Virus record (IMG/VR): IMGVR_UViG_3300020406_000022 | Span: 1-26,929 of that record | Reading direction: 5' to 3' (one strand) | Source of the DNA: a virus | Length of the DNA: 26,929 nucleotides | Part shown: positions 212-26,160 of the stretch, piece by piece | Layout of the letters: the number at the start of each line of letters is the position of its first letter | Position numbering within the stretch: the stretch's first letter is position 1 | The notes under the pieces: model-generated | Database searches by the model: none | What the model was told of the DNA's origin: nothing | Seen by the model: only the letters and a program-made list of their open reading frames with translations | Translations under genes and position numbers: made by a program

Positions 212-218
212 TGTTAAG

Positions 219-2503: not shown

Positions 2504-2520
2504 CTTTTATATTCCAAGTA

Positions 2521-8700: not shown

Positions 8701-9890
8701 TTGTTACCAAATTTAAACGGAACAGATGACAACGCAATCTCTTTCTTATCTCTTGGTTTTTCAATATCTAATATTGTACTAACAGGTCTTTCAATATCAT
8801 ATCCTCTTACATATGCCTTTCCGGGAGATACCTTTAGTGCAAATAAATCATCAGTAGGTGTTGCACCTTGATCTGTTAATTCTCCAGTATTAAATACACC
8901 TTCATTTGATATTCCATCATTTAATGATTCTTCAACATCAAATTTAAAGTTACCTACAGAATAATTACCAGATTCCTCATATGTTCTTTTTGCAAAGTAA
9001 TCTTTAATTAAATTATATTGTGTTTTATTTTGTAATTTTTTAAGTTCACCGTCATCAAGACGCATAATCTCAATAAAGTTCTTATCATTAAAATCAGTAA
9101 GACCTTTTTTCGTAAGAGTTGTGCTTATTTTAAGTCTATCTGCACCGGGAGCTGCAAAGTTTGAGAATCCTCTTGCATTATCATATAATGATTCATCATC
9201 ATTAGCAGATACTAATTCCTCTTTAATAAAGAGTCCCACTCTGTATGAAGGATTGTTTGTATATGGATCTAAAACTAACTTGTCAGCCGATACATTTACA
9301 AAATGACCACGAATAAAGAAAACACCATCAGCGATAGAAACTCTACAACCAACACCGGATGCTCCAATATCAATCAAATTTGCTACAGTATCACCTGAAT
9401 TAATTAATGTATTACCATAAACGAGAGACTCTTGAATTAGTAAATTTTCACCATCTTCTAAAAATTTAGAAGTATTATCTGTCCCTGCATCAATATATTT
9501 TACAAAAAGTGTAAGATCTGTTATTCCTGTTGCTTCATTTGGTAAAGAAAAATCATCGATAAGTATTTTTATACCAGTGCTTTGCCCCTCTAATATTTTA
9601 CCTTTTAATTGATCGACATATAAAGAAACTGGAATACCTAAATGATTTGAATCTAACTTGATAGAAAAATATTCTGGATCATATTGACTGTTTCCGGGAA
9701 TCACCATTGATCCCTCTTTAAACATATGACTACCAAACGATTCAATCTGATCTTGTAGAATAGATTGTAAAGTTGTTAATTCTCTAGCCTGAACAGGTTT
9801 TCCCGGATTAAATAATACTTTATAAAAATTACTATCCTTTGAAAAATCGTCGTAATATGGATTTATATTTAAATTAGTTTTCTGTGGCAT
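2718..9890 (-). CDS. Giant DUF4815-type virion structural protein (2390 aa)
   Basis: The N-terminus (about residues 1-75) carries 'NPYYDDF ... FNPGKPVQARELTTLQSILQ', the signature of DUF4815 phage structural proteins. More family blocks follow: 'PGKAYVRGYDIE' near 350, 'DYSRIVRNAGERVPNRRLS' and 'DTLDFRPRV' near 940-1015, 'DNRRFTMRDIGKIEDRVSNL' near 1120, and 'DPLAQSFTVDETGAFLTSVD' near 1568 after a proline-rich linker. A G-x-GY beta module lies near 1820-1900 and an 'EIIRY ... ERGVNG' module near 2005-2050. D2316-E2325 (DTDGDGFGDE) looks like a calcium loop. There is no membrane segment. It starts 3 bases after gp8 and overlaps the next gene by 4 bases. It sits where T4 has its peripheral baseplate genes (gp9-gp12), so a baseplate rim or fibre-bearing role is likely. 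It is far larger than T4 gp10 (602 aa), and I do not assign a T4 number. Confidence 0.85.
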   Translation of the reverse strand: MPQKTNLNINPYYDDFSKDSNFYKVLFNPGKPVQARELTTLQSILQDQIESFGSHMFKEGSMVIPGNSQYDPEYFSIKLDSNHLGIPVSLYVDQLKGKILEGQSTGIKILIDDFSLPNEATGITDLTLFVKYIDAGTDNTSKFLEDGENLLIQESLVYGNTLINSGDTVANLIDIGASGVGCRVSIADGVFFIRGHFVNVSADKLVLDPYTNNPSYRVGLFIKEELVSANDDESLYDNARGFSNFAAPGADRLKISTTLTKKGLTDFNDKNFIEIMRLDDGELKKLQNKTQYNLIKDYFAKRTYEESGNYSVGNFKFDVEESLNDGISNEGVFNTGELTDQGATPTDDLFALKVSPGKAYVRGYDIERPVSTILDIEKPRDKKEIALSSVPFKFGNKFQLNNVNGTPKLGINIVNTVDLFNERKTTANATSGSGTVIGMAKIYAFELTDAAYSDASSKFDLYLYDVQTFTSLVLNTAVTSTELPDTAFVEGLSSGASGFATGAGGNSANIVLEDTSGTFIVGEQIRINGLTTVARSIKTVTAHRLEDIKSVYQDSSAFSGFAFDFSGDLVLNSTPIRELSPSETVSISGSSVLTCAGKTFGSLKIGDVLILTKHSVADPVFNRVSAISADLKSVTLAATTNVSGVSQGAALTANTNVSSIRKGIPAIQDEGNGLFAKLENKNVSDVSLTNSDLSIKTQITGVAIGATGVFSANITDTDLGSGATFETFDEDRYSVHSTNGTIEPLTSDQVTISNNGQTLLIQNLTTASASNVVVNATVRKNDIKVKQKTFERSKRINVSLTNSGISTTNGLTQNTTAFGLRVEDKVISLNIPDVINVVGVFESLTTIDPVLDRLVFVSGLALNTTSVIGEKIIGSVSGAVAQITSRVSATIVEIAYLTQNKFTVGETVTFEESNIVTNLQGITEGSYLNVTSSYTLDKGHRQSFMDYSRIVRNAGERVPNRRLSIIVNHYTVPSNDTGDVYTVGSYDEERFSKDVPLIGDVRATDTLDFRPRVKEFEVTTLSPFSFPSRNFASAGTNPTLVVTPNEASKIGYSFYLPRTDKLILDPSANIQQAYTKGEFEILKGVSSENPISPEDIESGMTLATLEMPPYLYDVNDVKITVVDNRRFTMRDIGKIEDRVSNLETVTSLSLLELDTKTLQVQDADGLTRFKSGFFVDDFKNNSLFDILNPDCKADVDSEREELITPTDFYSLKPELALDPSIDSSTADFSSDLLLLDSGIKKTGDLITLDYEESTLLNQPLASRIENVNPFAQIHFEGGVVLNPSADTWTRNIILDDGTRTVFGDREDTFASQVLVSSEPDSHIRSRNVGFVASRIKPNTRFYAFFDSSSGIDIIPKLIEITMNSGVFQINETVEGFDGSERLISLRTCQPNHKSGSISAPSSTFGLNPYNNSVTLATTYSASSTVLNVDIASLTEEAQGRFFGYIKNGIKLVGKTSGATATVSNIRLISSDEGNLHGSFFFRNPLSTPVPAVRFKNGEKTFKLTSSSTNTLAVIGSPSNSVASATYHTSGVVDTVRQTQVIIRNLPAPPPPVIINNTTTIIQRVEVDRGDPLAQSFTVDETGAFLTSVDIFMKSKDVKEPLTVQIRTMELGTPTLIQVQEFAEVVLDPSQVNISEDASVATNVKFPSPIYLEGNNEYCVVLLAPTSNAYEAWISRMGDPTIETQSLPDSESVIVSQQYIGGSLFKSQNGSIWTPSQFEDLKIKLNKAKFTSTDATAFFYNPELNYESQLVPDLLNNPIKSYPRKLKLGITKTTTSATVNSLVSGVKISEGSASATAPMGTLERVGSEIATSNNALSVSVVGAGYSNGTYTNVNLFAITGAGSSATGIVTVTSGIVTAVSITSNKKGHGYSKGDIVGLATADMISGGGAQISIDAISGVDTLYLTNVQGENYTLGQDLVINGAVPQSGAVDITSNEVVSDLFTGNVIEVSQYSHGMTASNNKVEISNVSPTTEPAPLTAELGLNDNFIVVGSGNTSKFATFEGITTSRGYIQVNNEIIRYDSVGISSIGIAERGVNGSAIREHPIGSLALSYQFNGLSLTGINTVHDMPSSSILTQKKDIDNYFIEVPRGSGRTGLPDLSANDIMASFTDERSGGGTQVHASKNIQFNQVFPRFNTLQPGKTSLSSQVRTVSGTSAGGSESSFLDQGYEDIELNKINPLISTRLVASPVNETARLSDLPKNRSTTLSMRFTTDDENLSPVVDTMNGSLIFGRSRLNKPVSDYANDERVKLIVGDPHSGIYISNRVDLKTPATSIKVLISSDRKTSADFRALFKLFRPDSEGIEQSYELFPGFDNLTDTDGDGFGDEVIDGSKNSGRADSKVPANTSGEFVDYQFTADNLTEFTGFQIKIVFNGTNEAESPKFKDLRVIALA

Positions 9891-9893: not shown

Positions 9894-11453
9894 TTAGAAT
9901 TCCAGAATGATTTTGACATCTTCTTTTTGTCTTGAGTTTCTAGTAATAGTCGCTCTGTTGTCAATGTATATTATATCACCCGACCCTTTATTTATCTCAG
10001 GTGTGGCAAGACCATTTGTAAAGGTTACTCCTAGTCCTACATTTTTAGATCCAACTGTAGTGATACCCAGACTAAAAGTAGTTTCAATAGATCCACTGAA
10101 TCCACTTGGAGCAGAAATTTGATTAGTTGATGACTCAAATGCTAGAACTTGGCCTTGAGTTGATATACCAACATAATCTGTTTGATCAGTTGAGTTTCCA
10201 AAATATAATGATCTATCTTGAATATATTTCATTACTTTTGTTTCAGCATCATAAGATGCAACATATCCAACTGCTTTTAAACCACTACCTAAAGTTTGAG
10301 TTATTTTTTCACCTATAGTTGGATTTCCTGATGTTGTTGAAAATTTGAATGCATTCAATGATGAGAACGAATCACCAAAATATATTGATGTAGTTCCTAT
10401 CGATGTTGGATTTTTTACAAGTTGAACTTGTGCAAATTTAGTGTCAAGGGGGAAATCTTTATTATCACCACCAAATCGAGCATAAACTAAAACTCTATCA
10501 GTTCCAAGTTCTTCATATGCATTGTGACCATGACCTTTAGATGGGGGAATGATTGGTATTAATTTTGCTTTTGTTGATGCATTAGCATTTATTGATCCAA
10601 GATCAACTAGACCGTATGTATATCCTTTACCACCTGATGAAACAATAGCATTTGTAATTTTACCACTTATTACATCCACAACAACTTTACCACCAGTGCC
10701 ATCTCCGAGAATATTAAACTCTTGGCCAAGTCCACCTGAATATCCCTCACCTTGATTGTCAATATATACTTTTTTGATTTGGTTATTATTAGTATCCGAG
10801 TCTCCGTTCTCTCTTACAGATTGAATCGAAGCATCAGTTGTAGTTGTCCAATCATTAGGCACTGCAATAAAATCTGTTGAATCAAATTTTATAATATCAC
10901 TTGGTGCAACTGTAAAAAGATATTTCCACACATATCCATCACCACTCTCACCAGCCTTAGATGGTTCTAAATCAGTAAAAGTTGGTTCGTCTTGAGACGC
11001 ATTACCTGTGGTATTGATACCTGATGATCCGTTATCTATGCAAATATAAACATTAAAGTTTTCATTCATCACATAATATCTTGCATCATATAGTCTAGAA
11101 GACTGTGTGATTGGTGATGGAGAACTTACATTATAATCATGACGATACATTTCATATCTTGTACCCTGTGTCCAATTTACTCTACGAATTAATCTTCTTA
11201 CATTTCTACCGATAACTCTTTTTCCAAATAAACTCGTATCACCTATATGATTATTATCATTAATATTATCCACTGGGTTAGGAGTTGCTGTATTCCATGT
11301 GGAAGTTCTACCAAAACCAACGACAGTAGGGTTAGGCAAACTCACAGACACATAAAATGAGCTAGATGGATCAGTGCCTCCTATCCCTGTAACTGTATCG
11401 ACAAAGTTACTCGCATTTAATATTCTAAACTGATCTGTTACAACTGCTGGCAT
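9894..11453 (-). CDS. 8: Baseplate wedge subunit gp8
   Basis: This is the homologue of T4 gp8, which joins gp10 and gp7 on the outer baseplate wedge. Conserved blocks are visible in order: 'RRLIRRVNWTQGTRYEMYRHDY' region (residues 86-107), 'YYVMNENFNVYICIDN' (126-141), 'DGYVWKYLFTV' (172-182), 'FIAVPNDW' (195-202), and 'KGHGHNAYEELG' (306-317). T4 gp8 is 334 residues and this protein is 519, so roughly 185 residues are extra. Part of the excess is a G-x-GY beta module at about 235-285 that also appears in the two giant neighbours. The ATG is 18 bases after a TATAAATA late promoter, with an A7-G tract between them. The next gene begins 3 bases after the stop. The gp8 identity is firm; the function of the insert is inference. 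Confidence 0.9.
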   Translation of the reverse strand: MPAVVTDQFRILNASNFVDTVTGIGGTDPSSSFYVSVSLPNPTVVGFGRTSTWNTATPNPVDNINDNNHIGDTSLFGKRVIGRNVRRLIRRVNWTQGTRYEMYRHDYNVSSPSPITQSSRLYDARYYVMNENFNVYICIDNGSSGINTTGNASQDEPTFTDLEPSKAGESGDGYVWKYLFTVAPSDIIKFDSTDFIAVPNDWTTTTDASIQSVRENGDSDTNNNQIKKVYIDNQGEGYSGGLGQEFNILGDGTGGKVVVDVISGKITNAIVSSGGKGYTYGLVDLGSINANASTKAKLIPIIPPSKGHGHNAYEELGTDRVLVYARFGGDNKDFPLDTKFAQVQLVKNPTSIGTTSIYFGDSFSSLNAFKFSTTSGNPTIGEKITQTLGSGLKAVGYVASYDAETKVMKYIQDRSLYFGNSTDQTDYVGISTQGQVLAFESSTNQISAPSGFSGSIETTFSLGITTVGSKNVGLGVTFTNGLATPEINKGSGDIIYIDNRATITRNSRQKEDVKIILEF

Positions 11454-11471: not shown

Positions 11472-11479
11472 TATTTATA
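11472..11479 (-). promoter_or_regulatory. T4-type late promoter before gp8
   Basis: The minus strand reads GTATAAATATAG followed by a run of seven A, G, and seven more bases before the gp8 ATG. It lies in the 36-base gap after the stop of the giant gene. The TATAAATA core matches the late promoter of the T4 family. It should give gp8 and the 2390-residue gene their own late transcript, independent of reading through 12 kb of the giant gene. Confidence 0.72.
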
Positions 11480-11489: not shown

Positions 11490-14400
11490 TCAACCTAAGT
11501 TTTTACGAAGTGCTCCAGTGTCGCGAATACCAAAAACTCTACGCTGAACTGTAGGGAAAGTACTAATACCAACTCCATTTGTAAGACCTACAGTGTTACC
11601 TGTAACTCCTATTGCAATTGGATTAGGACGGTTGAATGAACCCTGTCCACTAGCGTTAAATAATCTACCCCATGAGAATCGACCGTTATTACCACTATTA
11701 ATTCCGACAGTTACTCCGAGACCAGAGTGATTTGTATTTGAATGAATATTGACTAATATCTCGGCTGTTAGTCCACCCCCTCCAATAATCTCCTGTATTA
11801 CATAGACATTATCAGCAAATGTTGTTCCTATTCCAACAACATCATTGGGACTACCACTTGTATTTAATGATGTTAAACCTGTACCAACATGAGTATCAAA
11901 GATATAAATTGGGAATCCAGCGTTCAATCCAGTAAAATTACCAGATGATTTCTTAAGACCAATTCTCAATCCAAGTGTTGAAACTCCAATCACCTCTGTG
12001 GATATACCCGTTACAATGCCTGAGAATCCTGCAACTGTTTGGATATTAGTAATATTTTCCTTTATTACTTCTGGTGTTGGTGCGAGAACGATAGGTAAAT
12101 TTGTGCTTGTATAACCAAATCCAACATTATTCATAGTAACTGATGCTATTGAACCGTTTGTGATATTGGCAGTTCCGACTGCAAATGTAGATACACCTGC
12201 AACAGCGAATTGAGTTGCTGCCACACCTACAGGTGGTGAGATTGAAATACTTGTTGTTGATCCAACATATCCACTTCCACCATCTACAACTGATACTGCG
12301 ACTTGTCCTGAACCATTGACAGTGGCTGATAATTTTGCTGTTACGGGAGATTTATCATCGACAACCAATACACCTATGTCATTAATTGAAATATTCGTGA
12401 TAGTTGCATCAGCAGCACTTGTATCTTCTTCATAATCGAAGAATTCAGCATTGTCAACAAATATACTTGTGCCTTCAGCAGTCCCTGTGCTTAAGTTACC
12501 TATCAATCTCGCAGTTGGATAAATTAATGGTTCAATTGAATCTCTTGATTTTGAAATGATGTCACTACCAATAACCTTATCAATTTTCTGTTTAGTCCAT
12601 TTAATAGGTTTGAAGTTAACTTCATCAATACCAACATTTGTATAAATTTCAGTTTCAAATGTATCTGATGTTGTGATACCAACAACTGTTCTACTCTTTT
12701 GTGCAAAAGTATTAGGAATACTATTATTACTTGTAACCTGAACAACATCACCCTTCTTAAGTGTTTCTGTAACATCAACAACAATAGTGTCAACACCAGA
12801 TGTTCCCTTGTAGAAGAAAACTGCAATATCATCATCTGAGTCTGGAGCTGATGTAAAGTTAAATGTTGTACCACCTTCAAATGTGTAATCTCTTCCGGGA
12901 TGTTGTATTACACCATTTACAAATATTAAAAGTAAATTCTGCATTTCAATCAATGAAGAATCTGCAGTATTTCTATCAATTTCAAAACTTAGTAATTGAC
13001 CATTCAATCTTATGGGGAAACGAGTTCTAATTCCATCTTGTAAACCTTTAATTGAGTCTGTATAGTCAAATTCACCAAAATCCCATGATGCAAATTCATC
13101 AGTAAATATTTCGTCAACTGATAGTGTAAAGTCTGTTAAAACTGCACCACGAGCAGTCACTAGTCCAACTGGTTTAATAACATCTCCCTTTTTAAATCCA
13201 AAACCGGGTCTTGCGATCTTGAACTGGGAGACAGTAAACATAGTAGAGCCAATACCTGTTGTTGAACTTGCACCAACATCTACTGTAACTTTAAGACCTT
13301 GGCCAGTGTCTGTGGTCGCACCAATACCTAATCTTGAAACACCAACTACATCAAGTGCTTCATAAGATGGTTGGGGTATATTTAATCTTGGATTTGTATA
13401 TGATACTCCAGCACCTGCGACTGAGAATATAAGAGTTCCACCAACACCGACGGTTGCATTGATACTCGCACCTGTTCCACCTCCACCTCCTTGTCCAACA
13501 AAGATTGTAAATGTATTTGTTGTAACTGATCTGATATCTGTTGCAATACCAACAATTGGATCACCAGTTGAAGAACTAGGAGTTACACCAGATCTTGGAT
13601 ATGGATGTAAACTTGCAAAATTATCCTTTGAACATCTGAATACAATACCACCAGTGTCAATACCTACATGATTACCAACAGATAATCCGTGATTTGCTAT
13701 TGTAATTTCTAAGAAACCAGTATGTGATGTGTAAACTGCATTTGTTGCAGTTCTAGCGGTTCCATTGAATATATTTGCAGCACCTGCTTGTGTTTTAATT
13801 GAACCAATGCCAGCACTCTCAAAACGATGCTCATATGCATGATCAGTGATACCTATCGCTACAGTTCCACGATATCCAGATCCATGAACATCTGTAGTCC
13901 CTATACCAACCCCTGTAATTTGTCCTGCATCATTCTTAACTACAGTAACTGCTGCACCAACGAGAGGTGCAATTCCTTGTCCACCTGTTGATCCTAATGA
14001 TACAACTACTCCACCTCTTGGTAGTTGATTTAGGTTAACATCAGACTGGCTAACGATCTTACTTCCATTTGCAGATGTGATACCGGTAAATACAATATTT
14101 GTAGCACTTGCAGATGGTGCAACAAATCCATAATTATTTCCGCTATTATTTGCAGTTGTTGGCTTTTGGAATATGCCATTAAGGAGAACAATACTACTTC
14201 CAGTTTGTATTCCAGTTGTATTCACACCAGCGACTAACATTCTATGAGTTGCACCAATACCAGTAAATCCATCAGAAATATCATCAAATATTCTGTTATT
14301 GGAGTAATCATTTCTTAAATATACTCTTCCATTAAATTCTGAACGAGGGAACTCTAAGTTAGATTGATTTCTTGTAACATTATTAGTGCCTTTGGGTGCA

Positions 14401-17400
14401 TCAGTAAAGAATATCTTACTATCTACTATATTAAATGACCCTGTGAACTTACGAATTGCATCACTATCAGAGTGAGTCGCTGCTGTACTTCCTAGTGATC
14501 CTCTCTCTACTCCAACTAAATTAATTGCACCACTGCCTGATATTGGGCCAACAGATGTTGTACCAACACCAACAGACGATACCTTCATCAACTCGGTGCC
14601 AACCTCTAGTATATCACCCTCGATAATAGAGGATATTCCGGCAACACTGAATACAGTGGATGTAGATGATATATTACCACCAACATTATTCGTTACAGTT
14701 GTATTTACCGGTGTGAACGCGATTGGGGATTGAATCAGTCCATCAATATCAATAACAGTTTTTTCTAACTTTTTAGTCATTTCCAACTGATGAATGTTTC
14801 CTGATCCTAAAGATACAAAAGTAACACCTGTTCCAGCATTAGCGTTTGATTTACTGGATGCTAATTTAAATGTATCTTTTGTTAAACGAATAGCAAATAC
14901 ATCTGTTGGAACATTTGAACTATGTGCAGTTGTCATTGCAGTAGCTGCAACACCAATAAATGAACTTTTAGGTGTATATTTTAATTTTTCACCTGTTCTA
15001 AAGAAATGATCAGTGATTGTAAATACACCAGTTACTGGATTTAAAGTTGATGTATCAGTTGGTCTAAATTGTTTTGAAAATATTGGAATTCCATCATGTT
15101 TCAATTCAAATTCTTTTTTATTTGCACGATCACCATTGACAGCATTATATTGTCTAACTTTAACAGACTCACTTACACGACCATATGTTAAATCTGGAGG
15201 GATATTGAATATATCAATATCTTCATAGAATAATTCACTGTACGCTTGAACTTCCACATCACTGAATCCACTGTCTGGATTAAATCTTAAATTAAAATTA
15301 GATCCAGAGAAACTTGCTATAAATGTACCAATACCTGCGGTGCTTCCTATTGATATGAATGGATAGTGAACTGTGGATGTGTTTGTTCCATCATGCATGG
15401 CAATGACTTGATGCATGGCATGAGTGGTGCCTTTGGAAACCTTTACAATACTCTTGATTGCATTGTATTTGTTTGAATCAACTCCAACGATTGTAGATAA
15501 TGCACTTACTCTCTTATAGTTTGACTGTAAATTTACAGATCTTTCAGATCCAGCAAGTTGTGTTGCATCTTTAAATCTATAAGTTCCAGTTCCTGCTGTT
15601 GTTGTTCCAAATCCAACTGCCTTTGCACGAACATTTACAGTGTTAATACCAGTATTTGAAAAATCTAATGATAAAATATTAGATTGTAGATTTGATGTGA
15701 ATGTTCCTATAAAATTAGATGAGAAGTTTGCTATATCACCAGTGTCAACATAATACTCTGTAAAATATGAATTAGTACCATCTTGTGTGACATATATGTC
15801 AACTAAATTTTTCTCACTCGTAATCGTATCTTTAACTTCAATAGTAGCGTAAAAGGCAGATGTAAATCCTACAGGAGCAGATAGAACACTAGTTGTTACT
15901 GCAGCACCTACATTTGTACTAACACCAATTAGATTAATAAATCCAACAGCCTGAGTTCCTACTCCAGACAAAGTGCTATTAAATCTATTTTCATATACTT
16001 TAATATCTAAATCATCATTAAATGGATCGTTAGGTGTAATTCTTAGTGATGTATCACCTGTGGAGGAATCTGTAAATCCGATGAGATCAACAATTCTATC
16101 TGTACCTATACCTAAACTATTTTTTTCAAATGTAAATGTATCAGTTGAATCCTTGAATACAACCACCTCATCTAATCTTACTTCATTCGTAGATATATTT
16201 TTGGTTTGAACAATATAACTTGTATAATCTTCAGTTAATGGAATGTCAATTCTATTGTCATTTGTGCTTTCTGCATTAGAGAATTGAGAACTAATATCGT
16301 CAATTTCGATTACACGATTAGTTCTACACTCAATATAACTTGCAAGTTTTTTATTTTTAAACTTTAAAAATTTAGATTTTTGTCCATTATCAAGAGTATC
16401 TGTGTCAATTACTAAATCAAAATTATTAATACTATCAACTCTTTGCTCAGTAATTAAATCTCTTGATAAAACTAAGTTAGAAATTGATGAGATACCTGAT
16501 TTTGCAGTTGATGAAATACCAGTATCAGAGAAATTTTTAAGTCCTGTTGTATGAAGTAATCTATTAACAGGATCTATTAGATCTGTATAGGCTACTGGAC
16601 TTTGAACTGTGTAAGATAAGTTTTGATAATAATCATTATCGGCAAGAACTTGATAATCTTCGCTTAATTTTCCTGTCTCTGTATCCCATCCTCGATTTTG
16701 TTTGAGTGAAAAATCAACATTAAATCTACCACGGTTAACATCAATCGAGTTTACTGTTGCTACAGTACCAGTGATTTCTCCTCTTATTTGATCACCAACG
16801 ACTAGCTCATCTTTACCGCTAATTCTAATAAACTCATTTGGATTATTTTCAAAAACTGTAAGTTTACCAATTACAAAATTATTACCTGTTTTTACTGCAA
16901 GCCTTTCACCTGCTTTGAATTGTGCAGTTGCTTGTGTAGTTCTAAATGATGGATAATCACTAAATTTAGTTATTGTTGCATAATTACTTTGAGTTGTTTT
17001 TGCGATACCAATAGGCACTGTTGTAATTCCAGTCATATCAAATTTAACTACAGCAGGGTTAGTATTTGTGTACGATGTAACTGTAAAGAAATTAAATCCA
17101 TGATCTGTTGAGTTATATCCTGACCCAGTTGATGAATCGAGTTGTATTCCCTCTACAAATATTTGCTCACCTACTTCAAATACTGAAGTAGAAAATCCTG
17201 CTACAGGAGTAACTAATGTACATGTAACAATACCAACAGTGCTTGTTGTGGACATACCTACTACTTGAGATATAGAAACACCATTTGAATTATTAATTGT
17301 TCTAATTCTTTGTTCTATTGGTTTTAAACCTTTAGGTGAACTAATAACATTGACTTCAGAAACAGAACTTGATGATAATGATAATTCAATCACACCTTGA

Positions 17401-20400
17401 TCAGTTAATTTGCCAGTTTCAGGGTCAACAACAACTAAATCTGGAGCAGAAATATAATTTTTACCTCCAGACACCACTTCAATTTTTCCAATAACATCAG
17501 AATTAATTAAAGTTATAGTTGGTGATATACGAGCATCAGGCCTGAGTGTTTTATCTGAGTGATATTCAAAACCGGGGTCTAATATTCTAACTTGATTAAT
17601 TTTATTAATATTATTAGATAGGCATAAAATTTTTGCATTTATACCATTTGTGGATGTAACACTTGTTATTCCGGGGATGTTTTTATATCCTAGTCCTGAT
17701 GATGTTAATAAAATTTTACCTACTCCACCACTTGCTAAAGATGAATTAGTAATATATGATAAATTATCTGTTTGTGAAGATGTATATGATAACCTTTCAG
17801 GTATTTTATTGAGAGATAAATTGAATGATGTGGTTCCTACACCAAAAACTGAATAAGATCCTTCATATTCACTATCAATATATGTAAGTTTTGATCCATT
17901 ATTGACATCAGGATCACTAGTGCTTATAAATCCAGATTTTTCAACAGCATAGAAAAGGTTTGTTGGATTTGAATCTGAATATTTCAATGTAATTTTTGAT
18001 GTTGTACCAACGCCAACAATTCCTTCTTTCAATAATACAAATGATGATGTAGATCCTGTAGATACAAATTCATTATTAAAATCAGAATCGTAGTATAAAT
18101 TAAAATTATATCCTGATAGAGACGAATCAGAAACATAAAATACTAAATCATTATTTCTAATAATTGATAATGGTGGATTTATTAATGATAATTCTTGAGA
18201 CGATCCACCGGTGTTAGTTGTAATACCAACAACCTTTGGTGGTTCATTATCTACATCATATTTTGTCTCTGCTAATTGGAAAGTATTGTCATCTAATCTA
18301 TAAACAAAGTATGTTCCTGTAGATAATCCAGTAGCAGTGGTAGTTTTACCGTCATAAAATACTTTTTGTCCAGTCTTGTATCCATGATCTGCCAAGAATA
18401 TACTATTATTACCAATATTTGTTTGTGCTAATGGAACTGTATTAATTAGAATCTTGTCTTCTGCAGCAGAGTATTTAACTATAATTGAAGTAGAGACACC
18501 TATACCACCAGAAATATTAGAATCTAATGTCAAATCTATATTACTACCATTAATAAGATTATGAGATGTGCTTACTGCAACATGAGCAGTAATTTTCTGT
18601 GCCTTTCCTAATACTTGAGTAAAGTTTGACTCAATTGAATATTCAAAACTGTCTGTACCATTATTTTTAAAGAATATTGTTTCAGCACCTCTGACCGTTG
18701 AAATACCAATTAAATCCTTAGAAATATTTTTGATGAAGACTGTTTGACTGTCACCACTTAATGGTAAGTTAAAACTCGCAGCAACCGCAGTTGTTGTTCC
18801 AGTTCCACATGAAATTGCATTTGCACTTGTTGGTTTTTTAAGAATTACTTCTTGATTATTGACAAATGGATGATTGGGTATGAATATATTTTTTGAAGGT
18901 ACAGATATTACCTTTGATCTTTCACCTGTTGTAAATGATTTTGCTAAACCAATTGCAACTCCGGCTGTCGTGCCTACACCAACTTGCTCCTCTGGATTAA
19001 AGAAAACAATATCATTAATTTTAGATTCAAATGGGGATGTAATAAGATCTATATCAAACCTATCAGGAACTGTAAAGACTGGTGTAGATAATGTATGAGC
19101 AGCACCTACGACACCTCTCTTAACTCTTAAAATACCTCTTTCATTAAATGTATTAAGAACTAATAGACTCTCTGTACCAATACCTATGCTACTACCTGCA
19201 GATACTACATCTGGTATTTTAGAAACATAAATGTCCGTTACAACACCAGCAGTGGCATTTGCTCCTAGTTCTTTATATAATACAACTCTTTCAGAAGAAA
19301 CACCAATTTTATGCGAATCAGTAAGTTTTGGAATACTTGTAGACAATCCAGATACTGCAATTGTATCATTGTTAGATAATGTATGAGATGTTGATATAAA
19401 TGCACTAACTTGACGAGCATTCTTCCTTACATATACGACATTTGTATAGGTCTCTACAGTTGTGTTGACACTACTTATAGGTTTACCTTTAACATGTGAT
19501 ACAAGGGCACTGGCTCCCCCACCAGAGGTATTTAAATTATCAAAGTTAAGGGTATCATTTACTTTGTAATCACTACCTGCCTCAACAATTTGAAAGTCTT
19601 GAACTTGACCTCTTGTAACAGACTCTACAACAGATTGTTGTTCTACTATTTCATTCGACTCAATAAGAAAATCATTATCGGCAAAATCATCAGAAACTTT
19701 ATATGGAAGTGTATTTCTTATTAAATTATTACCATTAAAGTCAAATGTAGATTGATTAATTAAAAAATTATCTTCTATAGGTTCAGACCTGTAAGTATCA
19801 CCTATAAAATAAGGATATTTAGGAATTAAGTTACCTTGAATACCAGTTGTAACACCAACAAAGTATGCATACACACCATTTGGATAATCTGGTGTTTTAG
19901 TAAATCTTCCATTACTTGAATCTAAATCACCATCATCTGTAAACTTATAATCTTCAACAAAAAATCCTGATGAAAATGATGATGGACGATTAGTGATATT
20001 TGAGGTATTTAAAGTATAACTTGTATTTAATAATTTTATAGATGAGTTTGAATCTTTAGGGTCACTATAACCATAAGGGCCATAAATTGGATTTCCATCA
20101 TATGCCCATCCAATAATTGGTGAGTGCCCACCACCAGTATCACCTAACTCAGTGCCATAAATTGAAGTGTTATATCCAACAACAGCATATTGTAAATTAG
20201 TTAGAGATTCTTGGAGTAATATTTCATCTTCAAATCTCTCTAAATTATTGAGTGTAAGACTTCTCACTGCTGGATCAAATATTTCTCCATCACCAGCTGG
20301 TTTTACTATTATTTGTGGTGATACTGTATATCCGATACCAGCGTTTACAATTTTCACATCAGTTATTTTACCATTTTCAACCACAGGTCTTAGTCTTCCA

Positions 20401-23400
20401 CCTATTCCTGATCCTATTCCAACCACTTCTAAATCTGGAGGAGAGAAATACTCCTTTCCTCCAAATCTCACATCAGTAGCAATAATTTTACCATTTGATG
20501 TAACAACCTTTATCTCAGCCTCTTTACCATTCTGTACTCTTACACTAGGTTTTTTCTCAAAGTTAAGAATATCAGAACCATAATTTGTCCCTCCTTCGTA
20601 AAGGTAATTATCTACGATTGAACCTCTTACTATCGGTGTTACGACTAAGGATTCTGTTAATGCAATAGAAACTGGTGAGTAGACTGCATTTACTGTTAAA
20701 ACTACTGGAGGGAATGCAAACTCTTGAAATCCGGTGCCCGATGAAGTAAATTTAACATAATCATTTCTTTCATAATCATTGTTTAGTGTGCTTGCTACTC
20801 TAAAAGAATTATTATTAAGTTTGATAACTTTGTACTGACTTGATGTGCTTAATCCTGATATTATTGATCCACCAGCAGCAAAATTATATTCAATAATATC
20901 ACCACTTACAAATCCATGATTAGCAAAGGTAATTGTATTTTCAATTGTTGATACTGCAGATGGTTTAACAATCAACTTTCGGTTTATGTAATCTGAACCG
21001 GGATTTTCAACAACAACTGATCTTAGATGATTTTTTTCATTTAATAGTTTAAATTTATGAGTACCCTGTGTGTTTACAGTTGTAAATCCAACAGTATTAA
21101 CACCTGCATTATAATCACTAAAACTTTCAAATAATCTTATTGAACTAATTCCAATAACTTCTGGATAATATATTGATCCATTAGATAGGAATCTATTTTG
21201 ATCAGCATTATTTGATGTATGAATACCAGCTACTATAGTTGATACACCCAATGGTGCATTTTCATTATTATCATAGACCAGTGGTTCACCACTTAATAAG
21301 TTATGTGCACCATTAATAATAATTCTATCATGGTTTACATCTACACCACCACCAATCGTTGCTTGTCTTGCATCAAAAGATATTTCCCGTATTCTTTTAG
21401 TAACTATGGGTCTTAATATAGCACCAGATCCACCACCACCAGTCAGTGTAATTGATAATATTTTTTCGATGTCAAAATTTTGTTGATCAACTAATACTTC
21501 CTGAAGTGATCCACTTATTACTGGTTGAACAAGTGCAGTAACACCAGATCCAACTTGAGGTATAACAACTTTTGGTAAATTAATAACATCATAGTTTAAT
21601 CCACCATTCAATAATTTTACGCTTGATAAGGGGCCACTAAAAATTTTATCATCAGACTTGTAGTTAATAATTTCAACACCATTAATTAAAATACCTGTTG
21701 CACCGGGACTTGTTATAGTAGATTTACCAGATTTGATGTTTGGTTCAACAGGAAACTTCTTAAGTATTTTTTGTACACCAATTTGCTCATTTTTATGCCT
21801 TAATAATACAAAAGTTTGTTTACCACTACCATCTGGTAATGCAGTAAACTCTAAATTATCATCAATTACAATAAATGATCTTGATGAATATAATTTTATC
21901 TGTTTTTTATCTGATAATACTTTTACATAATAAACATCTTCAGTTAACTCAGTTATACGAGTTGTTTCTGGTTTGTAAAATATTGCATCACCTGTGATAA
22001 ATGGAACATCAGATGGGAATGATATAATTGAATATTTTTGAGTAATATTGCTGAATCCTTGTAATCTAACACCATTCGCTTGAGATATTGTGCTTTTATC
22101 AACAGTCTCTGTTATATCATATGCTGGCATGGATGAAGATGCCACATAAAAATCAGAATCATTTAAATTATATGTATTTTGCACATTAGAAGTAATTACA
22201 TCGTTTCCAAATTGTAATTCAGATGTGCTACTTGTAGCTAATTTTAATTTTCTTCTTAAGAAATATTCAATTCCTGTTGTAGGTGTAAATCCACCTATAC
22301 CATTTAAAAATAATTGATTAGATGTTGATGTGACTGTAATTGTTTGTATAGTTGCATTATCAACATCAACTATATTAGTTCCCTTTCTTAATATCTGAAC
22401 AGTATCTCCCTCTTTTAAATTTGATTTATCAAAATTAGATTTGAGAGTAAATGTGGATCCACTTATAGTATTGATATCAAAAGAGCATGAAGTATTGTAT
22501 ATCCATGAATTAAACCATACCTCTTTCTTAGTTTTATCACTTATCGGATTTGGAACAACTTCACCAACATTCTTAACAGATATTCTCTCTCCTTCTGAGG
22601 TAACACTAGACCCCTCTGTAGGTAATAATTCAAAATCTGACAGCACACCAGTAATTCTTAATTCAACTTTTTTAGTTAAATCACCATCTTCATATCCAAA
22701 AACATTTTCATCAGATCTTAAATCATCTGTTGTTGATATGGCTGTGGAAACACCAGTACAATTTAAAAATTGATTGACTGTTCTATCAGTATAAGTTATT
22801 GTATTGATACCAGATATAACTGTGCCAGTTGTACCAAATCCGACTGTAGAATCAACTGTAATTACTGAAGATCCAACAGATACATTACCTATGACTTTTG
22901 TTTTTCCGGGAATAGTAAATGTTCCTTGAATTCCAGTCCTATCATTAAATCCTACAAATAAACCTATTTTGTAATATGTCTTACGATTACGAGTTACTAT
23001 TTCAACCTCAGATATAGATGCTTTTGTTTCAGAATCAGTGGATTTAGTTATTGTTTGACCAATTAACTTGTTTGGATCACCACTAATAACCTCAGCTAAT
23101 ATAACCTGTCTACGAATGTATTCTGCTGATGATGGTTTTACTAAAAATTCTTCTAAGTCAACAACTTTAGGAGTCACACCGAATAAGACATTGAATAAAA
23201 TTCTAAATGACTCTGCAGTTCCCTTAGATTGATATAATGATTTTGATTCTTTTATAAAATTACTTACATCTAAATTTGATACGAAAGATGAATCTTCCAA
23301 TCCGGGAGTCAATGATGACTTTATTTTTTTGTAAAATTCTTGTAAAAATAAAACACTTAAATTATTAACTGTTACGCCAGTAGTATGAATACCTGCAGTG

Positions 23401-23834
23401 CTTGTTTCAAATATCAATTCACCGGGATTATTTGTATCCCTATATGATGTAATACCACTAAAACCTCTAACACAACCAGTAAATGTATTAGTTGTGATAC
23501 CTGTGTATGTAATTATCTCTTCATCTACTTTTAAAAGCCCGTATTCGTTTGGAAACCCTTTTGTAGTTGATACTGTAATTGTATCTGAAGTTGAAGTAAT
23601 ACCAGATGTTAGAGTTGTAACACCAACTACCACCTCTGGAGTTAAATTATCTAATTTTAGATATTGATCTAAATTATCACCAATATCTATTACACCACCT
23701 CTGTGCTCCTGAGAGATGTAGTACTGTTTAAGAAAATCAACTGTTTTAGGGCTCTCTGAGAGAATAAACTCAGGGAGTTGACTTTCAATTATTTGTTGTA
23801 CTTGTATTCGCTTTTCAATACCAGTTCCAATCAT
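11490..23834 (-). CDS. Giant multi-module baseplate protein in the gp7 position (4114 aa)
   Basis: One uninterrupted frame of 12.3 kb lies between gp6 and gp8, the place held by gp7 (1032 aa) in T4. Residues 10-65 ('ESQLPEFILSESPKTVDFLK ... NLDQYLKLDNL') and 190-245 ('LYQSKGTAESFRILFNVLFG') match the N-terminal layout of large marine T4-like structural proteins. The rest is a mosaic of beta-rich modules: 'EIITYTG ... RGFSG' (93-125 and later copies), HG-x-x-x-G modules with 'Y-x-V-x-x-L ... F-x-L' (H973, H1817, H2943), a YHYH-like segment (about 1217-1328), an HPYPR module (about 3378-3450), and G-x-GY repeats. VG[IV][GS]TT-type turns recur at least twenty times. There is no membrane segment. 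The start has an AAGGA site 6 bases upstream (23841-23845) inside the end of gp6. The gp7-equivalent role is inferred from position. Confidence 0.85.
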   Translation of the reverse strand: MIGTGIEKRIQVQQIIESQLPEFILSESPKTVDFLKQYYISQEHRGGVIDIGDNLDQYLKLDNLTPEVVVGVTTLTSGITSTSDTITVSTTKGFPNEYGLLKVDEEIITYTGITTNTFTGCVRGFSGITSYRDTNNPGELIFETSTAGIHTTGVTVNNLSVLFLQEFYKKIKSSLTPGLEDSSFVSNLDVSNFIKESKSLYQSKGTAESFRILFNVLFGVTPKVVDLEEFLVKPSSAEYIRRQVILAEVISGDPNKLIGQTITKSTDSETKASISEVEIVTRNRKTYYKIGLFVGFNDRTGIQGTFTIPGKTKVIGNVSVGSSVITVDSTVGFGTTGTVISGINTITYTDRTVNQFLNCTGVSTAISTTDDLRSDENVFGYEDGDLTKKVELRITGVLSDFELLPTEGSSVTSEGERISVKNVGEVVPNPISDKTKKEVWFNSWIYNTSCSFDINTISGSTFTLKSNFDKSNLKEGDTVQILRKGTNIVDVDNATIQTITVTSTSNQLFLNGIGGFTPTTGIEYFLRRKLKLATSSTSELQFGNDVITSNVQNTYNLNDSDFYVASSSMPAYDITETVDKSTISQANGVRLQGFSNITQKYSIISFPSDVPFITGDAIFYKPETTRITELTEDVYYVKVLSDKKQIKLYSSRSFIVIDDNLEFTALPDGSGKQTFVLLRHKNEQIGVQKILKKFPVEPNIKSGKSTITSPGATGILINGVEIINYKSDDKIFSGPLSSVKLLNGGLNYDVINLPKVVIPQVGSGVTALVQPVISGSLQEVLVDQQNFDIEKILSITLTGGGGSGAILRPIVTKRIREISFDARQATIGGGVDVNHDRIIINGAHNLLSGEPLVYDNNENAPLGVSTIVAGIHTSNNADQNRFLSNGSIYYPEVIGISSIRLFESFSDYNAGVNTVGFTTVNTQGTHKFKLLNEKNHLRSVVVENPGSDYINRKLIVKPSAVSTIENTITFANHGFVSGDIIEYNFAAGGSIISGLSTSSQYKVIKLNNNSFRVASTLNNDYERNDYVKFTSSGTGFQEFAFPPVVLTVNAVYSPVSIALTESLVVTPIVRGSIVDNYLYEGGTNYGSDILNFEKKPSVRVQNGKEAEIKVVTSNGKIIATDVRFGGKEYFSPPDLEVVGIGSGIGGRLRPVVENGKITDVKIVNAGIGYTVSPQIIVKPAGDGEIFDPAVRSLTLNNLERFEDEILLQESLTNLQYAVVGYNTSIYGTELGDTGGGHSPIIGWAYDGNPIYGPYGYSDPKDSNSSIKLLNTSYTLNTSNITNRPSSFSSGFFVEDYKFTDDGDLDSSNGRFTKTPDYPNGVYAYFVGVTTGIQGNLIPKYPYFIGDTYRSEPIEDNFLINQSTFDFNGNNLIRNTLPYKVSDDFADNDFLIESNEIVEQQSVVESVTRGQVQDFQIVEAGSDYKVNDTLNFDNLNTSGGGASALVSHVKGKPISSVNTTVETYTNVVYVRKNARQVSAFISTSHTLSNNDTIAVSGLSTSIPKLTDSHKIGVSSERVVLYKELGANATAGVVTDIYVSKIPDVVSAGSSIGIGTESLLVLNTFNERGILRVKRGVVGAAHTLSTPVFTVPDRFDIDLITSPFESKINDIVFFNPEEQVGVGTTAGVAIGLAKSFTTGERSKVISVPSKNIFIPNHPFVNNQEVILKKPTSANAISCGTGTTTAVAASFNLPLSGDSQTVFIKNISKDLIGISTVRGAETIFFKNNGTDSFEYSIESNFTQVLGKAQKITAHVAVSTSHNLINGSNIDLTLDSNISGGIGVSTSIIVKYSAAEDKILINTVPLAQTNIGNNSIFLADHGYKTGQKVFYDGKTTTATGLSTGTYFVYRLDDNTFQLAETKYDVDNEPPKVVGITTNTGGSSQELSLINPPLSIIRNNDLVFYVSDSSLSGYNFNLYYDSDFNNEFVSTGSTSSFVLLKEGIVGVGTTSKITLKYSDSNPTNLFYAVEKSGFISTSDPDVNNGSKLTYIDSEYEGSYSVFGVGTTSFNLSLNKIPERLSYTSSQTDNLSYITNSSLASGGVGKILLTSSGLGYKNIPGITSVTSTNGINAKILCLSNNINKINQVRILDPGFEYHSDKTLRPDARISPTITLINSDVIGKIEVVSGGKNYISAPDLVVVDPETGKLTDQGVIELSLSSSSVSEVNVISSPKGLKPIEQRIRTINNSNGVSISQVVGMSTTSTVGIVTCTLVTPVAGFSTSVFEVGEQIFVEGIQLDSSTGSGYNSTDHGFNFFTVTSYTNTNPAVVKFDMTGITTVPIGIAKTTQSNYATITKFSDYPSFRTTQATAQFKAGERLAVKTGNNFVIGKLTVFENNPNEFIRISGKDELVVGDQIRGEITGTVATVNSIDVNRGRFNVDFSLKQNRGWDTETGKLSEDYQVLADNDYYQNLSYTVQSPVAYTDLIDPVNRLLHTTGLKNFSDTGISSTAKSGISSISNLVLSRDLITEQRVDSINNFDLVIDTDTLDNGQKSKFLKFKNKKLASYIECRTNRVIEIDDISSQFSNAESTNDNRIDIPLTEDYTSYIVQTKNISTNEVRLDEVVVFKDSTDTFTFEKNSLGIGTDRIVDLIGFTDSSTGDTSLRITPNDPFNDDLDIKVYENRFNSTLSGVGTQAVGFINLIGVSTNVGAAVTTSVLSAPVGFTSAFYATIEVKDTITSEKNLVDIYVTQDGTNSYFTEYYVDTGDIANFSSNFIGTFTSNLQSNILSLDFSNTGINTVNVRAKAVGFGTTTAGTGTYRFKDATQLAGSERSVNLQSNYKRVSALSTIVGVDSNKYNAIKSIVKVSKGTTHAMHQVIAMHDGTNTSTVHYPFISIGSTAGIGTFIASFSGSNFNLRFNPDSGFSDVEVQAYSELFYEDIDIFNIPPDLTYGRVSESVKVRQYNAVNGDRANKKEFELKHDGIPIFSKQFRPTDTSTLNPVTGVFTITDHFFRTGEKLKYTPKSSFIGVAATAMTTAHSSNVPTDVFAIRLTKDTFKLASSKSNANAGTGVTFVSLGSGNIHQLEMTKKLEKTVIDIDGLIQSPIAFTPVNTTVTNNVGGNISSTSTVFSVAGISSIIEGDILEVGTELMKVSSVGVGTTSVGPISGSGAINLVGVERGSLGSTAATHSDSDAIRKFTGSFNIVDSKIFFTDAPKGTNNVTRNQSNLEFPRSEFNGRVYLRNDYSNNRIFDDISDGFTGIGATHRMLVAGVNTTGIQTGSSIVLLNGIFQKPTTANNSGNNYGFVAPSASATNIVFTGITSANGSKIVSQSDVNLNQLPRGGVVVSLGSTGGQGIAPLVGAAVTVVKNDAGQITGVGIGTTDVHGSGYRGTVAIGITDHAYEHRFESAGIGSIKTQAGAANIFNGTARTATNAVYTSHTGFLEITIANHGLSVGNHVGIDTGGIVFRCSKDNFASLHPYPRSGVTPSSSTGDPIVGIATDIRSVTTNTFTIFVGQGGGGGTGASINATVGVGGTLIFSVAGAGVSYTNPRLNIPQPSYEALDVVGVSRLGIGATTDTGQGLKVTVDVGASSTTGIGSTMFTVSQFKIARPGFGFKKGDVIKPVGLVTARGAVLTDFTLSVDEIFTDEFASWDFGEFDYTDSIKGLQDGIRTRFPIRLNGQLLSFEIDRNTADSSLIEMQNLLLIFVNGVIQHPGRDYTFEGGTTFNFTSAPDSDDDIAVFFYKGTSGVDTIVVDVTETLKKGDVVQVTSNNSIPNTFAQKSRTVVGITTSDTFETEIYTNVGIDEVNFKPIKWTKQKIDKVIGSDIISKSRDSIEPLIYPTARLIGNLSTGTAEGTSIFVDNAEFFDYEEDTSAADATITNISINDIGVLVVDDKSPVTAKLSATVNGSGQVAVSVVDGGSGYVGSTTSISISPPVGVAATQFAVAGVSTFAVGTANITNGSIASVTMNNVGFGYTSTNLPIVLAPTPEVIKENITNIQTVAGFSGIVTGISTEVIGVSTLGLRIGLKKSSGNFTGLNAGFPIYIFDTHVGTGLTSLNTSGSPNDVVGIGTTFADNVYVIQEIIGGGGLTAEILVNIHSNTNHSGLGVTVGINSGNNGRFSWGRLFNASGQGSFNRPNPIAIGVTGNTVGLTNGVGISTFPTVQRRVFGIRDTGALRKNLG
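19850..20185 (-). other. YHYH-like domain inside the giant protein
   Basis: This part encodes about residues 1217-1328. The core is H1237-SPIIGWAYDGNPIYGPYGY-1256, which matches the 'G-x-A-x-DG-x-PIYGP' signature of the YHYH domain family. The His-Tyr-His-Tyr motif that names the family is not visible. In its place are 'NTSIYGTELGDTGGG' upstream and 'PNGVYAYFVG' at the domain end. YHYH domains occur in secreted and viral proteins and have no settled biochemical role. The call rests on the motif alone. Confidence 0.6.
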
Positions 23835-23835: not shown

Positions 23836-25734
23836 TTATGTCCTTGTTAGTTCTCCGTTTGCATAAGATGATGTAACTTTATATCCAACACCAGAAATTT
23901 GTTCACCTGAAGTTATTGTATCTTTAACCATATTTATAGTGCTATTTGGAATGTTAAATTCTAGATATAGGTCTTGTAATCCAATAACATCATTTGAATC
24001 AGGGAATGCCTGAACTTCAACAATATTATTAGGTTTATCAGTTGATACTATGTTGATTGTTGTTAGATTTACCTCACCATGAACATAATCAACAGTTCCA
24101 GCTGATTTTACTACAACAATATTTGTGTTTGATACCTCATCTTTTTTAACAATTGATATTACACCTGTAAGTTTATCATTATTAGGGGTATCAGTTATAA
24201 AAACTGTCTCTGATTCGCCTTGAATTCTAAATCCAGTGCTTTTAATATTCAATCCCTCTGGTTTAACATTGAATTTGTTTCCAAAACATAATTCATATTG
24301 TGCAAATTGATTTATTAAAGCATTTAAATTTCTTCTTATTTTAACACGAGTTATATTTGATGTAATTGAATTATCAATATTGTCAATTACATTTAATACT
24401 TTACTATATTTAAATCTTCCTCCAAATTTATTAAGGTCAGCTGATTTTGCATAAGATGTAAGTGATGAAGATATTTTTGATTGAAGGTCGTTGACATTTG
24501 CAACTTGTGATGAATTATAGTAAACAAAAGAATCAACTTCTACATAAAGAACTTGAAGATCTACAAGTTTTTGATTTATACCTGTTAATGAATAACTTTT
24601 TAATTTTTGTAGAATATTATTTTTGTCAAAATCAGATACAAATTCACCATTTTTTGGTTTGATAGTAATAAAAACAGTACCAAATTCAGGGGGTGTCAAT
24701 TCCTCTCCACCAACGACGGAAACACTTTCAGTATTAGGATATATTGATGCAATTATTGTCTCATAATCCCTAGCCGTAACCGCTCTATATTGTGCAGAAT
24801 ATAATCTAGGTGCAAAGTATTTAATTGAGTCTAAAGACTCTATTTCACCGCCATTTGAGGCAGATGAGATAGTTGTGATAGTGGGTACAACTGTCGGCAC
24901 AACAATATTTCCAAGAGAGTCTTGTAAACTACCTGCGTATGAAAATATTGATGGGCCATTACCTTCAATTCCACCTGTTACAATATACTGAACAGTAATC
25001 ACTGCTCCATTTTCAAGTTTTTTACCAAAAATGCCATCACCAAATAAAAGTTCATATCTTTCATCTTGAATTTCTTGAATTAGATATGTTTCTGATGCAG
25101 AGGTAACATTTACTATATTATCTACTAATTTGTATTGTTTTCCAAGACCGGGATCTGCAGAACCTTTTACATAAACCACTATAGAGGAGGAATCTATTGA
25201 TCCATTGTCTAATATAAATCTTTGTTCTAATGATCCATCTACTATAAATTGGTTTGTAAGAAAAGTTCCTTCTAAAACATCTACAGGACTCTCTGATGTA
25301 CCAAATTGTGCAATACCATTGTTTATAACTGCTGTGATGCTCTCTGATATTGAAAAAACAAAAGTGGTATCATCTTCTGCTCCAGTGCAAACTAAGCCCG
25401 GTTGTAAAGTAAGTGTTGGAGAAGATGAATTTGTTTGTACTTGAAATAAAATCGATGCTCTTGCTGCTGTTTTTGATCTTGGTACATATCCAATATTTCT
25501 AGCTAATGAAACTACATTTTCACGAAGTGTTGCGGAGTCTAGGAATGATTCATTAACGACTAAATTTGAGTTAAATGCTGAAATATAAGTATTATACGCA
25601 AGTGTGTCAATTAAAACTGAAAAGTTTGATCCTTCAAAGTCAAAGTCCGTAAAATTTGAGTTTGCTCTTAGGTAATCTTTAATTTGTGCCCTGATTTGAT
25701 CAAAATCAAGATTGGAAAATTTGGCGAAAGGCAT
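23836..25734 (-). CDS. 6: Baseplate wedge subunit gp6
   Basis: This is the homologue of T4 gp6, which forms the inner ring of the baseplate by dimerising between wedges and is related to the baseplate J proteins of simpler phages. At 632 residues it is close to T4 gp6 (660). The N-terminus is highly characteristic: 'LDFDQIRAQIKDYL' (residues 9-22), 'DFDFEGSNFSVLIDTLAYNT' (30-49), 'NESFLDSATLRENVVSLARN' (61-80), and 'IGYVPRS' (81-87). The J-like middle includes the 'YELLFGDGIFGKKLENG' block. The start overlaps the gp25 stop by one base (TAATG), so the two are probably translated together. The stop is one base before the giant gene. No truncation or frameshift is seen. Confidence 0.93.
   Translation of the reverse strand: MPFAKFSNLDFDQIRAQIKDYLRANSNFTDFDFEGSNFSVLIDTLAYNTYISAFNSNLVVNESFLDSATLRENVVSLARNIGYVPRSKTAARASILFQVQTNSSSPTLTLQPGLVCTGAEDDTTFVFSISESITAVINNGIAQFGTSESPVDVLEGTFLTNQFIVDGSLEQRFILDNGSIDSSSIVVYVKGSADPGLGKQYKLVDNIVNVTSASETYLIQEIQDERYELLFGDGIFGKKLENGAVITVQYIVTGGIEGNGPSIFSYAGSLQDSLGNIVVPTVVPTITTISSASNGGEIESLDSIKYFAPRLYSAQYRAVTARDYETIIASIYPNTESVSVVGGEELTPPEFGTVFITIKPKNGEFVSDFDKNNILQKLKSYSLTGINQKLVDLQVLYVEVDSFVYYNSSQVANVNDLQSKISSSLTSYAKSADLNKFGGRFKYSKVLNVIDNIDNSITSNITRVKIRRNLNALINQFAQYELCFGNKFNVKPEGLNIKSTGFRIQGESETVFITDTPNNDKLTGVISIVKKDEVSNTNIVVVKSAGTVDYVHGEVNLTTINIVSTDKPNNIVEVQAFPDSNDVIGLQDLYLEFNIPNSTINMVKDTITSGEQISGVGYKVTSSYANGELTRT
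23841..23845 (-). promoter_or_regulatory. Shine-Dalgarno site of the giant gene
   Basis: The minus strand reads AAGGA, then CATAAT, then the ATG at 23834, giving 6 bases of spacing. It is embedded in the last codons of gp6, whose stop lies one base before this start. It supports the chosen start of the 4114-residue protein. Confidence 0.55.
23932..23939 (-). promoter_or_regulatory. Possible internal late promoter at the end of gp6
   Basis: The minus strand reads CTATAAATATGG, a perfect match to the T4 late promoter core including the leading C. It lies within the gp6 coding region, 98 bases upstream of the giant gene's ATG. It could let the giant protein be transcribed separately from gp25 and gp6. 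Because it sits in coding sequence (it encodes Ile-Asn-Met around the core), it may be chance in AT-rich DNA. Confidence 0.4.
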
Positions 25735-26135
25735 TATCTTACTGCTTGTAATATGAATGAGAAGTCTTGGGTTGGAAACTCTTGACCTATAATATCAAAT
25801 AATACATTTACCTCAAACTCATTTTGATCTGGTCTAGGTATAACATTCACTTGTAAATTATCAACTCTAGGTTCAAAGTTTTCAATTGTGGTGATAATTT
25901 CTCTTTCTATGACGGATGCTGTACCAAAATCTACAAATCCAAAGAGACTATCACGAACTTGCGAACCTAAAATAGAATTAAAAAACCTTTCTGTCGGTAT
26001 TGTTTGCACCAAATTACGCACAGACCTCTTAATTGCGTTTTCATTTCGCAATGTAGTGATGTCTTTTGTAACTGGATGTGGTTTAAATGACAAATTTATG
26101 TCTTTAAACCCTCTAGATATGCGAGTTACCGCCAT
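25734..26135 (-). CDS. 25: Baseplate wedge subunit gp25
   Basis: This is the homologue of T4 gp25, the small wedge-core protein that contacts the sheath-initiating side of the baseplate and is part of the gp25/lysozyme-like W family. The length of 133 residues nearly equals the 132 of T4. Visible hallmarks are the N-terminal 'GFKDINLSF' strand, 'NAIKRSVRNLV' (residues 33-43), 'LFGFVDFG' (64-71), and the conserved EPR motif at 88-90, which in T4 joins gp25 to the wedge core. The ATG is 17 bases after a TATAAATA late promoter, and an A7-G tract ends 7 bases before the ATG. It is the first gene of the baseplate unit. Despite the family name, no lysozyme active site is expected or seen. Confidence 0.93.
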   Translation of the reverse strand: MAVTRISRGFKDINLSFKPHPVTKDITTLRNENAIKRSVRNLVQTIPTERFFNSILGSQVRDSLFGFVDFGTASVIEREIITTIENFEPRVDNLQVNVIPRPDQNEFEVNVLFDIIGQEFPTQDFSFILQAVR

Positions 26136-26152: not shown

Positions 26153-26160
26153 TATTTATA
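26153..26160 (-). promoter_or_regulatory. T4-type late promoter before gp25
   Basis: The minus strand reads GGTATAAATAAT, then seven A, G and seven bases before the gp25 ATG. The TATAAATA core is the T4-family late promoter element. It begins directly after the speD stop codon (26164-26162), so it separates the metabolic gene from the baseplate unit and should start the gp25-gp6-giant gene transcript late in infection. The untranslated leader would be only about 10 bases. Confidence 0.75.

Follow-up and report, generated by a model that had tools for sequence, protein, structure and literature searches.

The DNA studied here is a 26.9-kb virus record, the whole of which is called the window below. 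Its gp6-gp8 interval is occupied by a single giant protein, X. Is this protein the equivalent of gp7 of phage T4, and if so, what does its additional length contribute? T4 gp7 is a virion protein that initiates wedge assembly together with gp6 and gp10, and it likewise holds the position between gp6 and gp8.

X is encoded on the minus strand at 11490..23834 (ORF and translation, phrog_2885, tblastn). The frame of 4114 residues starts with ATG, contains zero internal stops and takes up 45.8% of the window, and its product is 3.99 times as long as T4 gp7 (1032 residues, NC_000866). These values agree with an earlier note on this DNA, which had described one intact 12.3-kb frame about four times the size of gp7 and covering nearly half of the window. 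A check for frameshift or assembly errors, set beforehand, also left the frame intact. In 56/56 independent IMG/VR contigs checked, no stop interrupts the homologous frame before the available sequence ends (longest 3843 residues), and cultured phages carry intact single genes in the same slot, namely S-SRM01 (3895 residues), ACG-2014f (4225 residues) and P-SSM2 (5195 residues). Because the frame is open in all 56 related contigs, fusion of X by sequencing error is excluded; the explanation of the frame as an artefact in which several genes were joined through sequencing or assembly error, for which the annotation of the S-SKS1 slot in several pieces was the sole support found, is thereby refuted.

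PHROG and Pfam matches give the gene order SpeD - gp25 - gp6 - X - gp8 - VrlC-type protein, in line with the earlier claim that gp25-gp6-X-gp8 follow each other as in T4. Upstream of X are the baseplate wedge subunits gp25 (133 residues, 25734..26135, minus; phrog_261, E 1.5e-50) and gp6 (632 residues, 23836..25734, minus; phrog_219, E 2e-197; Pfam Gp6-like_1st), and just one base lies between the gp6 stop and the start of X. Downstream of X are the wedge subunit gp8 (519 residues, 9894..11453, minus; phrog_438, E 7e-157; Pfam Phage-Gp8, E 4e-10), the VrlC-type protein (2390 residues, DUF4815, 2718..9890, minus; phrog_358, PF16075), a 114-residue L-shaped-tail-fibre-assembly protein and a 558-residue protein. 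The gene speD, encoding an S-adenosylmethionine decarboxylase (116 residues, 26162-26512), is located directly upstream of gp25; in S-SRM01, speD is likewise close to gp25, with one small gene intervening. Four late-promoter-like TATAAATA boxes were observed on the minus (coding) strand, at window positions 2496-2503, 11472-11479, 23931-23938 and 26153-26160. Three stand just upstream of start codons (114-residue gene, gp8 and gp25) and the fourth is located inside gp6, about 97 bases upstream of X. Their total is at chance level (4 versus 4.25 expected); their placement looks non-random.

X matches the PHROG 2885 family, 'baseplate wedge subunit', with 3593 bits (E 0) from residue 3 to 3405 on profile positions 3-3416 of 4179, and its N-terminal 1000 residues matched 460 cyanophage records in tblastn. 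Megablast against phage records and phmmer of X against PDB chains returned no match. The P-SSM2 homologue (AAX44489.1, 5195 residues) is annotated 'gp7: baseplate wedge initiator'. This protein and the 'baseplate wedge initiator' of S-SRM01 share with X the slot, both core halves, the YHYH region, the module A pair and the tail, at 39-51% identity over the stretches compared. Further slot lengths are 3048 residues in S-PM2 (with another 175 in the next gene), 3007 in S-SSM7, 6483 in Syn19 and about 6180 in S-SM1, and outside the cyanophages shorter proteins of 1016 (pelagiphage HTVC008M) and 503 residues (Stenotrophomonas phage BUCT608) are encoded in the slot. A comparison of slot lengths had been proposed in the earlier note; with a range from 503 (BUCT608) to 6483 (Syn19), it places X in the middle. 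Cyanophages as a rule have a giant gp7, and X is an ordinary member of an already described family. What stands of the earlier view of X is a gp7 equivalent in the form of one giant protein; it missed that giant gp7 proteins are normal in this group and that their family is already named. In S-SKS1 (L006, NC_020851; 8040-20427), the slot comprises two annotated genes preceded by ~7 kb without annotation, and the three parts of X all have matches across this region, at 43-50% identity.

The homology to gp7 goes beyond position alone, which upholds the claim of gp7 equivalence. X opens with an N-terminal helical segment (LPEF...FLKQYY; residues 1-64; 23643..23834, minus), assigned from alignments and from hhalign with the BUCT608 protein. 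The first half of the gp7 core, a domain V-like region with an SKGT..S..ILFNVL motif, follows at residues 168-292 (22959..23333, minus; hhalign, HMM h1). When compared with the T4 gp7 family in hhalign, the N-terminal family profile of X aligned to T4 residues of about 724-813 (E 1.1e-6) and a broader X profile to 727-813 (E 1.6e-9; reversed control, E 0.67); reversed controls of the core comparisons gave E 0.3-0.7. HMM h1, which was built without T4 or window sequences, as was h2 below, matches the window protein at 168-282 and T4 gp7 at 732-759. Among all PDB chains, the sole match of the family profile with E <10 was baseplate gp7 (E 0.0085). The slot protein of BUCT608 aligns from its N-terminal helical segment onwards to T4 gp7 from ~644, where Pfam Gp7_helical covers 643-689. 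In hhalign, its residues 8-206 of 503 match T4 gp7 640-824 at E 5e-6, and the protein matches PHROG 2885 at 2e-30; this compact protein bridges the two families. The AlphaFold2 model of X residues 1-500 was too weak to judge the fold by (pLDDT 56, pTM 0.29), probably as the packing partners of the core helices are gp6 and gp25. Foldseek with this model ranked T4 baseplate chains 5iv5_BJ first (E 0.012) and 5hx2_A third (E 0.16), neither of them significant; judged from their lengths (1004 and 1030 residues), both chains are probably gp7.

A second conserved segment, YYQ-[DN]-x-SY ... HPaG, is common to BUCT608, HTVC008M, S-PM2 and Syn19, and HMM h2 was built from these four. Supported by hhalign, it locates the second half of the core (YYQNLSYTVQS...HxxG motif) at residues 2380-2443 of X (16506..16697, minus; E 7.8e-6), and it also matches P-SSM2, S-SSM7, ACG-2014f and S-SRM01. 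Its match to T4 gp7 862-890 is weak (10.7 bits; best shuffled sequence, 2.0). A nine-member profile of the segment aligned to T4 gp7 865-904 in hhalign at E 4.5e-5, with a score of 39.8 against a top score of 21.8 for 20 column-shuffled T4 profiles. The two halves are collinear with T4 gp7, in which ~50 residues lie between them versus ~2100 in X. Measured between the KGT motif and the second segment, the distance is ~125 residues in T4, ~300 in BUCT608, 570 in HTVC008M, 1630 in S-PM2, 2200 in the window and 2760 in Syn19, and the order of the core motifs is the same at slot lengths of 503, 1016, 3048, 3895, 4114, 4225, 5195 and 6483 residues. Pfam model PF23786 Baseplate_wedge (284 positions) falls on the KGT half in HTVC008M and, below the curated cut-off, on the HPaG half in S-PM2; HTVC008M and BUCT608 score above the cut-off and X below it (13.2 versus 27 bits). 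As the motif spacing grows and the PF23786 halves separate, the extra length can be attributed to three sites: the interior of the core, which carries an insert, the C-terminus, which carries a tail, and in Syn19 also the N-terminus, which is extended. To judge from these alignments, the gp7 core is present in X but split by an insertion of ~2000-2100 residues, and is followed by a C-terminal tail of ~1670-1700 residues. No description of such a split-core gp7 anatomy was found in the literature searched.

T4 gp7 itself (phrog_964) contains the KG[TI] helix, the domain V-like region and the HPaG segment in the same order as X. Its core halves, however, follow ~640 residues of N-terminal domains, whereas the core of X starts at the N-terminus, and neither these N-terminal domains nor domain VI were found in X. 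Under Pfam, T4 gp7 yields Gp7_5th, Gp7_6th and a sub-threshold fn3; X has no fn3, Gp7_5th or Gp7_6th match. Since its T4-like core is both short and interrupted, and it lacks the N-terminal domains of T4 gp7, X is better described as a reduced core bearing an insert and a tail than as T4 gp7 plus extra modules. The slot proteins of BUCT608 and HTVC008M resemble X in being encoded before gp8 and a VrlC-type gene and in having both core halves, but have small inserts (~200-500 residues) and no recognisable YHYH domain. The T4-GC969 proteins of S-SM1 and Syn19 are, like X, located immediately after gp6, and the Syn19 protein has both core halves, the YHYH domain and module C. Unlike X, they carry a GxGY-rich N-terminal region ahead of the KGT motif (Syn19 residue 702), and gp9 and another baseplate gene stand before gp8. 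In Anabaena phage A-1(L), the wedge is a (gp31)2-gp32 heterotrimer with a third subunit that contributes its N-terminal helices to the bundle; unlike X, this subunit is small, with helices 1-107 and a C-terminal loop 129-151 described (PMC10966104).

The extra length had earlier been taken to consist mostly of beta-rich modules. This holds only in part: the two stretches modelled with AlphaFold2 are mainly strands outside the core helices, and T, S, G, V, I and N are abundant in X, but recognisable repeated modules make up a small part of its length. An iterated HMM identified two copies of module A, a beta module of ~45 residues, at residues 83-127 (23454..23588, minus) and 322-364 (22743..22871, minus). 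Module B comprises two tandem GxGY beta repeats of 40 residues each at residues 1101-1180 (20295..20534, minus; HMM, AlphaFold2 pLDDT ~83-93), and a third repeat is located at residues 3880-3917 (12084..12197, minus; HMM). The module A and B HMMs gave zero matches among shuffled sequences. In the C-terminal third of the VrlC-type protein, the stretch NDNFIVVGSG...IIRYDSVGI resembles module A by eye; the module A HMM has no match there. Residues ~205-281 of gp8 match phrog_460 (Hc2) at E 0.0015, and phrog_460 also matches the GxGY repeats of X; such a module may therefore be common to adjacent wedge proteins. The HTVC008M slot protein (L163:11436-14486, NC_020484) is annotated 'head closure Hc2', and 'baseplate wedge initiator' sits on other genes. 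This Hc2 label may stem from GxGY repeats, because phrog_460 weakly matches X, gp8 and other wedge proteins as well.

The insert is conserved and contains a YHYH domain (PF14240, E 1.3e-26) at residues 1237-1329 (19848..20126, minus), which is retained among the aligned giant cyanophage gp7 proteins at 36-52% identity to the window. One study predicted that YHYH acts as a metal-dependent, tail-associated hydrolase through a set of three histidines plus one aspartate (PMC7824862), so the insert could be a baseplate-borne enzyme that attacks the envelope. This is very improbable for X, which matches only positions 92-183 of the 193-position model, within its C-terminal half. Among 61 relatives, H1237, D1246, D1295 and D1305 are conserved and no histidine triad is present, so that the three-histidine and aspartate set of PMC7824862 is not found; with H1237 as the sole well conserved histidine left, hydrolase activity is doubtful. 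The domain thus appears conserved but degenerate. The model of the YHYH region (pLDDT 77) had nothing below E 0.26 in the PDB with Foldseek, i.e. no similar solved fold, and among predicted viral structures it matched YHYH proteins and other cyanophage structural proteins, which added no function.

The assignment of X to gp7 conflicts with the literature, in which T4 gp7 is stated to be absent from pelagimyophages and cyanomyophages and apparently substituted by VrlC (PMC7029224). According to this statement, the VrlC-type protein would take the role of gp7 and X would be an unrelated structural protein in the slot, and the plain comparison of X with the PDB, which finds nothing, is consistent with it. 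We consider this very unlikely, as both gp7 core halves are found in X and neither gp7-core HMM hits the window's VrlC-type protein. Moreover, the two genes stand side by side wherever annotation shows both (Syn19, HTVC008M, BUCT608, S-PM2 and S-SRM01). VrlC as gp7 is accordingly not supported. Contrary to PMC7029224, the profile matches place gp7 in the gp6-gp8 interval in both pelagiphages and cyanophages.

Identity along X is fairly even, except around residues ~3300-3550 in the tail, where close relatives fall from 75-97% to 34-40% or lower. This region contains a variable cassette at residues 3334-3449 (13488..13835, minus) with one copy of module C (~77 residues); relatives contain 0, 1, 5 or 8 copies. 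One copy is present in the window, none in S-SRM01, five in L390, eight in P-SSM2 and four in Syn19. Relatives L366 and L368, both ~93% identical to the window over the C-terminal 599 residues, have one copy and none, respectively, and the same holds for L374 (one) and L370 (none), both 79% identical to the window. The cassette is a gain-or-loss site that varies even between close relatives. The difference in copy number between P-SSM2 or S-SRM01 and X entails a difference in length, and the eight copies at the cassette site largely account for the extra length of P-SSM2.

Taken together, X is most probably the gp7 wedge subunit in a T4-like phage of the Kyanoviridae type, anchored by its core and bearing two large outward lobes. 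The core, formed by the helical segment with the KGT and domain V-like region (~1-300) and by the HPaG segment (~2380-2443), is most likely packed onto two copies of gp6 and onto gp25 in the manner of the T4 wedge, which would require its two halves to meet in space. Between the halves, ~2100 residues with the GxGY repeats and the YHYH domain would exit, and the ~1670-residue tail would follow the second half. Insert and tail probably form large lobes that face outwards, in six copies per virion, and enlarge the baseplate, with the tail and its variable cassette probably supplying a surface for attachment or host contact. A structural role of X is likely. In S-SM1, gp6 is followed by T4-GC969, whose product was detected in purified virions (PMC3037559), a report that concerns the related S-SM1 protein and not X itself.

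The strongest competing explanation is that X serves chiefly as an adhesin or fibre for receptor binding, for which the core is only an anchor, and whose insert and tail, as the principal organ of host recognition, replace the missing T4 g10, g11, g12 and long-fibre genes. T4 g10, g11, g12, g34, g35 and g37 were reported missing from cyanomyoviruses (PMC2984593), YHYH was listed among putative receptor-binding domains (PMC7029224), and the module C cassette makes the tail of X variable. The YHYH domain, however, is among the more conserved stretches of X rather than hypervariable, and the separate 558-residue protein and the L-shaped-tail-fibre-assembly protein in the window leave room for dedicated fibres. 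A further hint comes from coevolution with the host in a chemostat, in which S-PM2d081 (3048 residues) acquired a non-synonymous change by day 39, alongside changes in gp8 and short tail fibre genes (PMC9910659). Its length equals that of the gp7-slot protein of S-PM2. The mutation is weak evidence, because most early S-PM2d changes were already in the deposited genome. We regard the adhesin explanation as possible but not probable, and the built-in adhesin or fibre suggested earlier stays a hypothesis with indirect support. For X as a wedge subunit, a role in host contact is plausible, and we propose it tentatively.

The placement of gp7 in cyanophages and pelagiphages now comes with features to look for, namely a short core and a huge insert. 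A split-core gp7 also explains the erratic annotation of this slot ('head closure Hc2', 'VrlC', 'tail fibre', 'initiator'). More speculatively, gp7 of marine T4-like phages may be a host-contact organ, in which a split core displays an insert of ~2100 residues and tail-tip cassettes that are gained and lost, in place of gp10-gp12 and the long-fibre genes. Should insert and tail contact the host, adsorption functions that are divided among several genes in T4 would be borne by the wedge in phages that are among the most abundant in the ocean.
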